Part shown: positions 16,792 through 44,671 of the stretch, in pieces | How positions within the stretch are numbered: the first letter of the stretch is position 1 | Layout of the letters: the number at the start of each line of letters is the position of its first letter | NCBI GenBank assembly: GCA_016866215.1 | Contig: VGNE01000015.1 | Coordinates: 1 to 63,955 of the forward strand | DNA length: 63,955 nt | Direction of reading: 5' to 3' | DNA from: Chloroflexota bacterium | GTDB taxonomy: Bacteria > Chloroflexota > Anaerolineae > Anaerolineales > Villigracilaceae | The notes under the pieces: model-generated | Database searches by the model: none | What the model was told of the DNA's origin: nothing | Seen by the model: the letters and a program-made list of their open reading frames with translations, nothing else | Translations under genes and position numbers: made by a program

Positions 16792-17538
16792 CTACTCAAT
16801 CGCCTCGCGCAGTTTCCGCGCCAGCTTTCCAAAATGGGGCGTATAACGAATATCATCTTTTCTGGGACGCGGGAGGTCAACTTCCACGTCCAATTTTATT
16901 TTTCCGGGGCGCTGGGTTAATACCAAAACCCTGTCTGCTAAAAACAATGACTCGTTGATCGAATGCGTCACCATGATGACCGTTTTTTGCCTGGCCTGCC
17001 AGATGCGGGATAACTCTGTCCACATGCGTTCACGGGTGAGGGCATCCAGCGAGGCAAAAGGCTCATCTAGCAGGAGCAGGTCCGGGTCATGGATGAGCGC
17101 GCGCGCGATCCCGACCCGCTGTGCCATGCCGCCGGAAAGGTCGCGCGGCCACGAGTCTTCGAATCCCTGCAAGCCCACCAGTTCGATCATCTCCAGCGCT
17201 TTTTTCCGCGCCTTCGATTCGCCCAGACCCTCCAACTCAAGCGGAAGTTTGATGTTATCCAGCGCGCTGCGCCAGGGCATCAGGCTGGCCTGCTGAAAGA
17301 CCATGCCGATCTTCGGATGCTGGTGATGGATGAAATGCACCCGCCCCGTTGTGGGTTGTAATAGATTTGCAACCGCCCTCAGCAGGGTGGTCTTGCCAGA
17401 ACCCGATGGACCGAGGAAACAAATAAATTCACGCGGACAAACTTCGAATGAAATATCCTCAAGCGCGCGCAATCCTCCATTGCTGTCAGGAAAAACAACG
17501 GAGAGGTCTTGGACGGTGAGGATGGGTCTGGTGGTCAT
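16792..17538 (-). CDS. ABC transporter ATPase of the probable riboflavin importer
   Basis: A 248-residue ATPase of the SsuB/TauB/ThiZ class. It has Walker A LGPSGSGKTTLL (about 43), Q-loop MVFQQASLMPWRSAL, signature LSGGMAQRVGIARAL (about 137) and Walker B LLLLDEPFASLDALT. It powers the permease at 18846-19607. It is third in the operon permease, binding protein, ATPase, and the FMN riboswitch upstream of the operon suggests riboflavin or a related flavin as cargo. A dispersed palindrome separates it from the binding-protein gene. Confidence 0.9.
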   Translation of the reverse strand: MTTRPILTVQDLSVVFPDSNGGLRALEDISFEVCPREFICFLGPSGSGKTTLLRAVANLLQPTTGRVHFIHHQHPKIGMVFQQASLMPWRSALDNIKLPLELEGLGESKARKKALEMIELVGLQGFEDSWPRDLSGGMAQRVGIARALIHDPDLLLLDEPFASLDALTRERMWTELSRIWQARQKTVIMVTHSINESLFLADRVLVLTQRPGKIKLDVEVDLPRPRKDDIRYTPHFGKLARKLREAIE

Positions 17539-17548
17539 CTAAGTTTCC

Positions 17549-17735
17549 ATGTCATTGCGAGGAGCGCTCTTGTTCTTTGCGACGAAGCAATCTCCTATAA
17601 AGTTGAAGATTGCTTCCCTTCGACAGGCTCAGGACAGGCGTCGGGAAGTACATCCTCCTACTAATGACACAGAGTGTCATTTTGCATAGAATAGCGGTTT
17701 TCGCCCGCTATGGATATACTCGCAACGACATATAT
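17549..17735. repeat. Palindromic repeat family 1 (CATTGCGAGG...), copy 1
   Basis: GTCATTGCGAGGAGCG, GCGACGAAGCAATCTCC and AGATTGCTTC blocks, ending in a CTCGCAACGACAT-type mirror. Additional small hairpins (TGACACAGAGTGTCA) sit inside, so this copy is longer than the others. Confidence 0.7.
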
Positions 17736-17738
17736 TAA

Positions 17739-18725
17739 CTACGGAATAAACTCATTCGTGAATGCCTTGCTCAAATCCAACGGCGCGGGGATCAATTCCA
17801 TTTTTACCAAAAGATCATTCATGTTCTCCCAGGCTTGCGGGTCTGAATAACCGATTTTCTCTGCTTTCCAAAATTCAATGGAGGTATACAGGATTTGTAA
17901 TTGGACAGCCTTGTCTTGATCTGCAAGATTTTCCACGAATTTCAAACTGATCGTATAAGCCGCATCGGGATTTGCAATCGTATCTGCAATGCCGCGCGCC
18001 AATGCACGCGCCATGCTTCGCACAAGCTCAGGCTCATTCTTGATCGTCAATTCACTTGAAAGGATGCCGTTGGCGGTCAACTGCACATAATCTGCCACGC
18101 GCAACTCATTCACTTCATAACCCAGCGATCTTAATACGATCGGTTCATTCGCCGCGTAACCAACCACAATATTTTTTTGTTTCGCTGCAAACGCTTCCAC
18201 CTGATTGAATCCAATGGCATCCATCTTCACATCCGCTGGTTTAAGTCCCGCAGAAAAAAGAAGCGCCTGCAAACCAATGTAATTCGCTCCAAACAAACCG
18301 GGCAGACCGATGTCCTGTCCGCGCAGGTCGGCAGGTTCATGGATGTTCAACTCAGGCGCAGAGATGATCGAAATTGGAAATTGCTGATACCAGGCAAAGG
18401 TATAAACCACGGGTAACCCCTGCGAACGCGCCAGTAAAACCTGCTCCCCTGAAGCCACCGCAAAGGGCAGTTCGCCCGCGCCCACCAAGGCCACACCGTC
18501 TGTCTCGAAGGAATAATCGAATTCGAGTTCGATCCCCTCCTCGGCAAAATAACCTTTATCCACCGCGACATAGAACGGCGCATACTGGATGTTTGGGATA
18601 TATCCCATCGGCAGTTTGACGCGGCGCGTGCGGACTATATCCGTTTCATTACCGACCTGTACATTGCCGCAAGCCGAAAGGCTGAGTGCCAGCCCAAGCA
18701 TGAGTAAAACTAATTTCTTAAACAT
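17739..18725 (-). CDS. ribY: Riboflavin-type ABC transporter substrate-binding lipoprotein (NMT1/ThiY-like)
   Basis: A 328-residue lipoprotein from ATG 18725 (RBS AAAGGAGA). The lipobox is LSLSACG. The mature part is an NMT1/SsuA-type binding protein: MGYIPNIQYAPFYVAVDKGYF, EEGIELEFDY, LPFAVASGEQVLLARSQGLPVV. The family also covers thiamine precursors and sulfonates. The assignment to flavin rests on the FMN riboswitch at the head of the operon and on the known RibXY systems of Chloroflexus; it is context-based. A longer frame extends to 18824 through a dispersed repeat and is unlikely. Confidence 0.8.
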   Translation of the reverse strand: MFKKLVLLMLGLALSLSACGNVQVGNETDIVRTRRVKLPMGYIPNIQYAPFYVAVDKGYFAEEGIELEFDYSFETDGVALVGAGELPFAVASGEQVLLARSQGLPVVYTFAWYQQFPISIISAPELNIHEPADLRGQDIGLPGLFGANYIGLQALLFSAGLKPADVKMDAIGFNQVEAFAAKQKNIVVGYAANEPIVLRSLGYEVNELRVADYVQLTANGILSSELTIKNEPELVRSMARALARGIADTIANPDAAYTISLKFVENLADQDKAVQLQILYTSIEFWKAEKIGYSDPQAWENMNDLLVKMELIPAPLDLSKAFTNEFIP

Positions 18726-18743
18726 TGTGTCTCCTTTGAATTT

Positions 18744-18845
18744 GCCTCGTCGTTGCGAGGAGGGCGTAGCCCGACGAAGCAATCTCCAACACGGTGAGGG
18801 GGATTGCTTCGGGCGGGAAAACACCGCCCTCGCAATGACGGGTTA
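18744..18845. repeat. Palindromic repeat family 1, copy 2
   Basis: CGTTGCGAGGAGGGCG, CGACGAAGCAATCTCC, GGGATTGCTTCGGGCG and CCCTCGCAATGACG in mirrored order, between the permease and binding-protein genes. Confidence 0.75.
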
Positions 18846-19607
18846 TTATTTCTGCCATTTCAAAAATTTTCTTTCAAGCAAAGTCACCACACCATATAGT
18901 GACAAGGCCAGTGCGATCAGCGTGAAGACTGCCACAAAGACCATGGAAGTGTCATATTGAAAATCACCAAGCTGCAAAAGGAAACCGAGTCCCTGCTCTG
19001 CGTCCACCAGCTCGCCGACGATTGCGCCGATCACGGATAAGGTTGCGCCAATTCTTAATCCGCCGAGCAATACGGGCAGTGAAGCAGGGACTTCCAGTTT
19101 CAGTAGAATCTGCAAGCGTGTGGCGCGGATGGAATGCATCAGGTCATACAAGGCTGTCGGCACAGCGCGCACGCCAACCACTGTATTCACCAAAACAGGA
19201 AAGAACACGATCAACGCGCAAATGACCACCTTCGAGAGAATCCCATCCCCGAGCCAGATGACCAGCAACGGAGCAATCGCCACAACGGGAATGGCCTGGC
19301 TGGCCACAAGATACGGCGAAAGGATTTTTTCAAGCGAGCGCGATTTTGCAAGCATATAACCCGTGACTGTGGCAAAGGCGATGCCGGATAGTAAACCCAG
19401 CACGATCTCCGCCAGAGTAATCCGCGTGTGATAAAGCAGGCTTCCATCCATGAGCGCTTTGACGAAACGCGTCCAAACGTCTGCGGGCGCCGGCAGGATA
19501 AAACGCGGCAGTTGGGTCACCTGCACAATCAATTGCCAGGCCAGTAAGGCAAAGGCAATCGAAAGGATCACAGGAAGGATATTTTGAACACGCTTGAATA
19601 CGGACAT
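18846..19607 (-). CDS. ribX: ABC transporter permease of the probable riboflavin importer
   Basis: A 253-residue BPD_transp_1 permease of the SsuC/TauC type with about six membrane helices. The ATPase-coupling loop is in the region LKLEVPASLPVLLGGLRIGATLSVIGAIVGE (shown by its EVPASLPVLLGGLRIGA part). It begins about 80 bp past the terminator of the FMN riboswitch and is the first gene of the operon. RibX is inferred from that context; sulfonate or pyrimidine-precursor transport are alternatives by family alone. Confidence 0.8.
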   Translation of the reverse strand: MSVFKRVQNILPVILSIAFALLAWQLIVQVTQLPRFILPAPADVWTRFVKALMDGSLLYHTRITLAEIVLGLLSGIAFATVTGYMLAKSRSLEKILSPYLVASQAIPVVAIAPLLVIWLGDGILSKVVICALIVFFPVLVNTVVGVRAVPTALYDLMHSIRATRLQILLKLEVPASLPVLLGGLRIGATLSVIGAIVGELVDAEQGLGFLLQLGDFQYDTSMVFVAVFTLIALALSLYGVVTLLERKFLKWQK

Positions 19608-19686
19608 AAAAAATGCGCCTCGCTTGTGTCAACAATCGGGGCGCAGAGACAGGACAAGGCGGAGTTAGAGGCGGATATCATGCCAG

Positions 19687-19719
19687 ATAAAAAATCCCGA
19701 AAACAAGAATCGTTTTCGG
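19687..19719 (-). terminator. Expression-platform terminator of the FMN riboswitch
   Basis: On the minus strand CCGAAAAC (19719-19712) pairs with GTTTTCGG (19704-19697) over a 7-nt loop, followed by ATTTTTTAT (19695-19687). It lies between the FMN aptamer and ribX, so the operon should be switched off by premature termination when FMN is plentiful. Confidence 0.85.
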
Positions 19720-19754
19720 AGCATGAATCCACACAGACCGCGCAGGTCCGCGTT

Positions 19755-19918
19755 ACCTTCTTCTATCCAGACTATACTGTCGGCCCTGGAATTACACCAA
19801 GTCATGCGCTTCTGGAGTCAGGAAACTTGCTTCCGTAAATTCCGACAGCTTGCTGTCGGACTCCAGAGTTGCTCGTGGGCTGTACCACCGATCGGGAATT
19901 GCACCCTGCCCCGAAGGT
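19755..19918 (-). promoter_or_regulatory. FMN riboswitch (RFN element)
   Basis: Reading the minus strand, the conserved RFN blocks are present in order: CTTCGGGGCAGGGTG, AATTCCCGATCGGTGGT, AGCCCACGAGC, a variable hairpin, TTGGTGTAATTCCA, GGGCCGACAGTATAGTC and TGGATAGAAGAAGG. The closing stem P1 is ACCTTC/GAAGGT (19755-19760 with 19913-19918). A terminator follows at 19687-19719. This is strong sequence-level evidence that the three-gene ABC importer downstream responds to FMN. Confidence 0.95.
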
Positions 19919-19957
19919 TAAATATTTTGTTGGTGTGATTATAATGCATATCACGTG

Positions 19958-44227: not shown

Positions 44228-44671
44228 TTAGTTATTGTCTTCGAAAATCACAACGGGTTCAGTTGGCCAGCCTTGTTGATGGGATCGAATAACATATTCT
44301 GCAAGCTCGCGCGGCACGATGTTTTTCTTCAATACATCTTCAAGCGGCATCCAGAGCGGGAGATAGGTTCCGTGCGCAGGATCATATTCCCCATATTCAT
44401 CACCTGTGCCAGTGCCAAATTCCCCGCCGGTCTTTTTGACTAAAAAATAAGCTTGAGAACCTTGATTAAAGATGATCTCCGCCACTTTTTGATTGATCTC
44501 AACAGTAATTCCCAACTCTTCCCAAGCCTCCCGGATTGCGGCTTGGTCCGCGCTTTCTCCTTCGTCAATGCCGCCGCCCGGAAAGGCAAAGTAGTGCAGT
44601 CCCTGGCGATGACGCTCGATCAGCGCAAGTTTGTTTTCTTCGATCAGGATGATGCCAGCCCGGTTTTTCAT
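44228..44671 (-). CDS. NUDIX hydrolase
   Basis: A 147-residue protein with the complete Nudix box: GGGIDEGESADQAAIREAWEELGI (its core GGGIDEGESADQ and REAWEELG). It hydrolyses a nucleoside diphosphate linked to another moiety; the substrate is not predictable. The start overlaps the ribF stop by 4 bp (ATGA), so it is the last gene of the truB-ribF-nudix series. Confidence 0.9.
   Translation of the reverse strand: MKNRAGIILIEENKLALIERHRQGLHYFAFPGGGIDEGESADQAAIREAWEELGITVEINQKVAEIIFNQGSQAYFLVKKTGGEFGTGTGDEYGEYDPAHGTYLPLWMPLEDVLKKNIVPRELAEYVIRSHQQGWPTEPVVIFEDNN

Follow-up and report, generated by a model that had tools for sequence, protein, structure and literature searches.

Gene organization of the FMN riboswitch operon

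The stretch of DNA analysed here (the window, 63,955 nucleotides) comprises positions 1 to 63,955, forward strand, of contig VGNE01000015.1 in assembly GCA_016866215.1, from a Chloroflexota bacterium of the Villigracilaceae whose genome (G000) is a 3.74 Mb draft, 97.01% complete and in 128 contigs. On the minus strand of the window lies an operon headed by a flavin mononucleotide (FMN) riboswitch, or RFN element, in which a promoter-like site and the aptamer are followed by three genes of an ATP-binding cassette (ABC) importer, named here ribX, ribY and ribZ. The features of the operon, and the flavin gene ribF that lies apart from it, are as follows.

19966-19938 (-): promoter-like site (TTGAAA, 17 nt, TATAAT), from a consensus match alone, 11 of 12 positions
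19922-19751 (-): FMN riboswitch aptamer (RFN element), long variable hairpin included, from the RF00050 covariance model
19720-19689 (-): T1, terminator-like hairpin with U tract, stem 19720-19696, 5' arm GCTCCGAAAAC, from its fold and conserved position in relatives
19645-19608 (-): T2, terminator-like hairpin with U6, stem 19645-19614, 5' arm TGCGCCCCGA, from its fold and conserved position in relatives
19607-18846 (-): ribX, ABC permease, 253 amino acids, Pfam BPD_transp_1
18728-17739 (-): ribY, substrate-binding lipoprotein of the NMT1/THI5 family, 329 amino acids, Pfam NMT1
17538-16792 (-): ribZ, ABC ATPase, 248 amino acids, Pfam ABC_tran
45585-44668 (-): ribF, riboflavin kinase / flavin adenine dinucleotide (FAD) synthetase, PF01687 and PF06574, unlinked to ribXYZ

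The aptamer belongs to RF00050 by its covariance score, matching the complete model (positions 1 to 138) with 101 bits (E 2.9e-22) against a gathering score of 66.2, and it is the sole RFN match in the host genome. An initial annotation of this DNA, made from the letters and their open reading frames, had proposed a full RFN element, and the RF00050 search that it named as a check bears this out. It was also right in delimiting an RFN-headed operon, although the end that it gave, 19918, falls 4 bases short of the end of the aptamer, and right in its permease, binding-protein and ATPase genes, which are recognised by the three Pfam families listed above. The promoter-like site ends at 19938, 15 bases ahead of the aptamer; six sites of this kind occur in the region against 4.1 in shuffled sequence. 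RibY carries a lipobox, read by eye as LSAC.

By family names alone, the three genes would suggest an importer of sulfonate, taurine or nitrate, as the best NCBIfam matches are a taurine ATPase, the SaoP permease and the SsuA subfamily. All listed matches of RibX, RibY and RibZ (for the ATPase, the best 25) nevertheless lie below the curated cut-offs: RibY scores 55.4 bits against the 163.5 required by TIGR01728 for SsuA aliphatic sulfonate proteins, and the best ATPase match 201.6 against 357. The operon thus shares the ABC importer class and the permease type with SsuABC and TauABC but not their family scores, and control of such an importer by FMN would have no reason. This explanation has next to no likelihood.

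A dispersed repeat around CGACGAAGCAATCTCC is also present in both gaps of the operon, between ribX and ribY and between ribY and ribZ. The window contains nine copies with at most 2 mismatches, against 0.09 expected: four exact (17580, 18772, 22696 and 29985) and five others (29959, 34134, 47807, 60033 and 60058).

Comparison with RibXY of Chloroflexus aurantiacus and with thiamine-related binding proteins

A ribXY clone of C. aurantiacus (Caur_0816-0817) is reported to have rescued an Escherichia coli ribB mutant at low riboflavin, and RibY of that species to bind 'flavins' (PMC4418817). Both annealing parts of the ribXY cloning primers given in that paper match one locus (L226, genome G174) exactly, at 771 (+) and 3260 (-), facing each other and enclosing the RFN core, ribX and ribY. 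RibY of the window is 46% identical to the C. aurantiacus protein over residues 35-329 (295 of 329 residues, E 7.9e-81), within the first ortholog screen described in PMC4418817 (more than 38% identity and 80% coverage to C. aurantiacus RibY), and RibX is 45% identical over residues 24-252. The order of elements is likewise shared, with the FMN riboswitch ahead of the permease gene and the gene of the NMT1/THI5-type binding protein behind it. The window operon differs in including the ATPase gene, ribZ, beside ribXY, a ribZ match being absent from the 5.5 kb fetched around L226; its genome differs in having no ribB, ribE or ribH match, and its leader in having two terminator-like hairpins where that of C. 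aurantiacus has one. A three-gene system with an ATPase, RibXYZ under an FMN riboswitch, is already known in Chloroflexota: PMC4418817, citing Rodionova et al., mentions the ATPase gene ribZ with ribXY in a few Chloroflexi, and RibXYZ is among the known transporters listed in PMC5312566. The proposal of the initial annotation, a riboflavin importer like RibXY of Chloroflexus, is supported by this identity to a tested operon that also bears an RFN element, and flavin binding by RibY of the window is predicted.

The AlphaFold model of RibY (pLDDT 90.9) has a binding-protein fold. Its nearest solved structures, by sequence and by fold, are 3ix1, the formyl-aminomethyl-pyrimidine binding protein (ThiY) of Bacillus halodurans, and 4nmy, a thiamine-bound protein of Clostridioides difficile; no chain named RibY is among the 8 structure profile matches. 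The fold search confirms the binding-protein fold and cannot tell the ligand. An importer of thiamine or a thiamine precursor, similar to ThiXYZ, in which the FMN riboswitch reports flavin status for another reason, would accord with these two structures, with the Pfam family NMT1/THI5 and with the thiamine pyrophosphate (TPP) riboswitches that some homologs in other phyla bear according to PMC4418817. Identity in the fold alignment is, however, 26% to the B. halodurans protein and 24% to the C. difficile protein, against 46% to the tested RibY, and the window operon carries an FMN and not a TPP riboswitch. The only TPP riboswitch of the host genome is on another contig (C47), where the genes behind it encode thiamin pyrophosphokinase and a binding protein of another type, so no thiamine function need be invoked for the RFN operon. 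An RFN element moreover precedes ribX in 52 of 61 genomes of the order. A thiamine importer is very improbable, and it was rejected together with the sulfonate reading on the RFN linkage, the identity to the tested RibY and the NCBIfam scores.

Riboflavin synthesis genes in the host genome

No match to ribH, ribE or ribB was found in the 97.01% complete draft, with searches that were positive in 14, 11 and 14 of 14 control genomes, respectively. The ribD model reaches 31.6 bits against a cut-off of 156.35. The protein matched is nearer to the dCMP deaminase ComEB and was rejected as RibD. A clear match (E 1.2e-50) exists for ribA, encoding GTP cyclohydrolase II, in a 5'-truncated frame of 152 residues (G000:C19:15879-16244; L266 1492-1950) that stands directly after another open frame and corresponds to the family model from about residue 50 on, some 45-50 N-terminal residues being absent. 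It could be what is left of a lost pathway, or else result from the assembly. The lack of ribABDE, which the initial annotation had proposed to check, therefore holds for ribB and ribE, with ribD below its cut-off, and does not extend to ribA; its placing of ribF at 44668 is correct, the protein having both flavokinase and FAD synthetase domains.

Riboflavin would serve a cell that has RibF but lacks ribB, ribE and ribH. This bears on a further explanation, that the true substrate is another flavin (FMN, FAD, lumichrome or an analogue) and riboflavin is secondary. The binding of 'flavins' by C. aurantiacus RibY would allow it, but the tested homolog restores growth with riboflavin (PMC4418817), and we consider this variant improbable.

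Distribution of the RFN-linked importer

The order was sampled with 61 genomes including the host, 37 from the genus of the window and 24 from other families. RFN matches occur in 57 of the 61, above the cut-off in 55; the matches in G039 and G018, both counted among the 52 that precede ribX, are below the gathering score. Both ribH and ribE are confined to the same five genomes (G033, G038, G045, G050 and G058), that is 1 of 37 in the genus and 4 of 24 elsewhere, and riboflavin synthesis appears to be lost in most sampled members of the order. The RFN-ribX locus and ribH occur together in G033 only (1 of 61), where the ribH match is partial, so the RFN-linked importer and ribH are nearly exclusive of each other in close relatives. 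Among the nine genomes without an RFN-ribX locus are four that bear ribH, with their RFN at synthesis genes; in another, G041, the RFN is close to a contig end, and in G001, G013, G034 and G049 no RFN was found. A ribZ match stands beside ribX and ribY in 47 of 50 loci (L045-L094), one of the 47 being partial.

A wider sample of 251 genomes from the phylum contains at least 76 with an RFN-linked RibY, where linkage means the same contig and less than 4 kb on either strand, RibY matches were taken to about 1e-50 and RFN matches from the listed part of the hits, so that linkage counts are lower bounds. The gene ribH is lacking in 51 of these 76 and in 44 of the 175 others (Fisher p 5e-10, uncorrected for kinship). 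In a phylogenetic tree of 48 proteins, one fork, whose support of 90/86 is moderate and below that of the best forks, groups 35 RFN-linked RibY proteins, including that of C. aurantiacus, together with L234, whose genome (G198) has RFN and RibY on different contigs, and three copies from genome G059 without a linked RFN; nine other paralogs without RFN fall outside it. The RibY family thus appears to track the riboswitch well, though not perfectly.

The three extra RibY-like copies of G059 (L100, L101 and L102) are 35-40% identical and have no RFN above the gathering score; nested near the RFN-linked proteins, they could reflect a change of substrate after duplication. Other RibY paralogs (L095-L099, L103 and L104), at 27-30% identity, occur in the genus and order of the window, sometimes two or three in tandem, with no ribX or ribZ match and no Rfam riboswitch in the stretches fetched.

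Taken with the absence of ribB, ribE and ribH matches, the TPP riboswitch elsewhere and the near-exclusive distribution in relatives, all of which further back the riboflavin reading, the operon very probably encodes RibXYZ, an ABC importer of riboflavin repressed by FMN, in a member of the Anaerolineales that is probably auxotrophic for riboflavin; riboflavin as the substrate of RibY is a prediction from sequence. Several observations weigh on the other side. The fold alone would suggest thiamine, as the nearest solved relatives bind thiamine or a thiamine-related pyrimidine. In one member of the order, G049, ribXYZ is present but no RFN was found, by cmscan either. At least 25 of the 156 phylum genomes that bear ribH also have an RFN-linked RibY, among them the genome of the C. 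aurantiacus locus, and PMC4418817 likewise mentions the importer in genomes with synthesis genes; because of such genomes, the importer does not prove auxotrophy. Finally, the host genome is of draft quality (128 contigs).

Two terminator-like hairpins in the leader

Between the aptamer and ribX the leader contains two terminator-like hairpins. The stem of T1 has a z score of -2.61 (3 of 200 shuffles as good) and that of T2 -3.04 (0 of 200). The U6 of T2 (19613-19608) directly adjoins the ribX ATG at 19607, and its 3' arm contains GAGG, 10 bases ahead of the ATG, which may be the ribosome site. A generic terminator scan found 7 candidates against 6.4 in shuffles, T2 not being in its list; since this is no excess, conserved position was used as evidence, and it is mainly this that points to T1 and T2. 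The single intrinsic terminator of the initial annotation corresponds to the hairpin at 19720-19696, whose position is conserved; the second, at 19645-19614, had been missed.

At least two terminator-like hairpins were counted in 33 of 52 leaders, against 10 of 156 shuffles. A larger group was defined by ribX at least 55% identical, irrespective of taxonomy, and comprises 106 distinct leaders that are related to one another. Two or more hairpins are found in 69 of them, one in 32 and none in 5, against 5, 36 and 65 with one shuffle per leader. More distant leaders of the phylum have two in 3 of 31, and a single one is seen in that of C. aurantiacus. The counts of 106 and 31 exclude duplicates (68 leaders), loci lacking the core pattern (16) and loci in which no aptamer 3' end was recognised (3); for the same reasons 13 loci are missing from the comparison that includes C. 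aurantiacus. Among 12 leaders of synthesis type, 6 were readable and 2 of these, from genomes of the same order (G033 C356 and G050), have two hairpins, so the dual platform may be a lineage trait and not specific to the importer. The 5' arms start mostly about 30-40 nt (T1) and 100-120 nt (T2) past the aptamer, about 65-85 nt apart.

In both hairpins the 5' arm tends to be of GCCCCG type, complementary to the 5' strand of the aptamer, UUCGGGGC; T1 of the window has GCTCCG. At least two GCCYCG motifs are present in 66 of the 106 leaders against 49 of 2120 shuffles, and in 101 of 106 both arm windows match the complement of UUCGGGGC at 6 or more of 8 positions, compared with 251 of 2120 shuffles; the leaders being related, these counts are not independent. 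A match in a single window arises by chance in 647 and 822 of the 2120 shuffles. The shared arms suggest that one aptamer strand acts as antiterminator for both hairpins. Among the 12 commonest combinations, the GCCCCG of the T2 arm faces GAGGC with a C-A mismatch in 57 of the 101 leaders that have a match in the T2 window; the fully pairing GCCTCG is seen in 5. Because GCCCCG is kept despite the mismatch, the T2 arm would seem to be under a double constraint, having to fit the aptamer strand as well.

In the following mechanism we infer the antiterminator pairing and termination by both hairpins; the general mechanism of FMN riboswitches is described in PMC7573352. RibY would capture riboflavin outside the cell, perhaps other flavins too, RibX and RibZ would bring it in, and RibF would convert it to FMN and FAD, FMN being the ligand of the riboswitch. 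When FMN is plentiful, it would hold the P1 helix of the aptamer, T1 and T2 would form, and transcription would stop ahead of ribX. When FMN is scarce, the freed strand UUCGGGGC would base-pair with the 5' arms of both hairpins, which are of GCCCCGA type, the polymerase would read through and the importer would be made.

We lean, by a little, towards a platform in which one FMN aptamer controls two successive terminators through this single strand, antiterminator for two GCCCCGA-type arms about 65-85 nt apart, giving a two-checkpoint shut-off that would be tighter or graded; it would be a feature of the Anaerolineales as a whole and not of the importer, because at least two genomes of the order have the same layout upstream of genes for riboflavin synthesis. 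A less probable but serious alternative is that one hairpin alone terminates and the other is a spacer or, as the contact of T2 with the ATG in the window would allow, sequesters the ribosome site. The GAGG in the T2 3' arm, the weakness of the window T1 and the leaders in which the same rule gives one terminator (32 of 106) or none (5 of 106) would fit this. On the other side, several relatives (for example G007 and G015) have T2 and its U tract well clear of the start codon, as suits a terminator, and the U tracts that follow both hairpins are similarly spaced in relatives.

The two-terminator platform also has to face the 37 of 106 leaders with fewer than two terminators and the low stability of T1 in the window (-9.8 kcal/mol). 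A stricter, 11-position stem rule gives this T1 7 of 11 and finds no T2 in the window, and the unconstrained fold of the whole leader without ligand is a long-range structure in which neither switch state is clean. The stricter rule holds for T1 in 61 and for T2 in 40 of the 106 leaders. Of the 61 T1 stems, 53 have C-G and 7 have T-A as the second pair, counts that lean towards structure, as the rule selects stems for pairing.

A similar arrangement is the Bc1 cyclic di-GMP riboswitch of the Bacillus cereus group, in which one aptamer is followed by two intrinsic terminators; dual-terminator platforms are rarely seen, according to the authors (PMC11218506). As described there, Bc1 has a different aptamer and terminators 28 bp apart, against about 65-85 nt between the 5' arms here, and a further difference is that the arms of the window share sequence complementary to an aptamer strand. 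In the literature searched by titles and abstracts, which leaves most subscription journals outside, Bc1 is the only natural riboswitch with dual terminators, and none with an FMN aptamer was found.

In the leaders of G020, G027, G028 and G032, a small hairpin of the type CCCTGAACGAAAGTGAAGGG is inserted in the apical loop of T2, resembling a repeat insertion that left the terminator of the riboswitch intact.

A putative second operon for vitamin uptake

A cobalamin riboswitch (RF00174) lies at 30280-30117 (-). It scores 37.2 bits, where 31.5 are required, and is followed by a BtuFCD-like set:

29904-28981: Peripla_BP_2
28894-27902: FecCD
27941-27138: ATPase

This would be the second vitamin-uptake operon of the window, its B12 role being suggested by the riboswitch.

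Implications

The analysis assigns a role in riboflavin uptake to genes that, by the names of their families, would be taken for sulfonate or thiamine-precursor transporters. Beyond the known RibXYZ system, two things are of interest: a leader with two candidate terminators, and riboflavin synthesis apparently lost from most of the order as sampled. Riboflavin dependence is indicated in much of a largely uncultured order of Chloroflexota, which bears on growing its members, and the dual-terminator platform, if it operates in the proposed way, would offer naturally varied leaders in which to study the benefit of a second terminator to a riboswitch.

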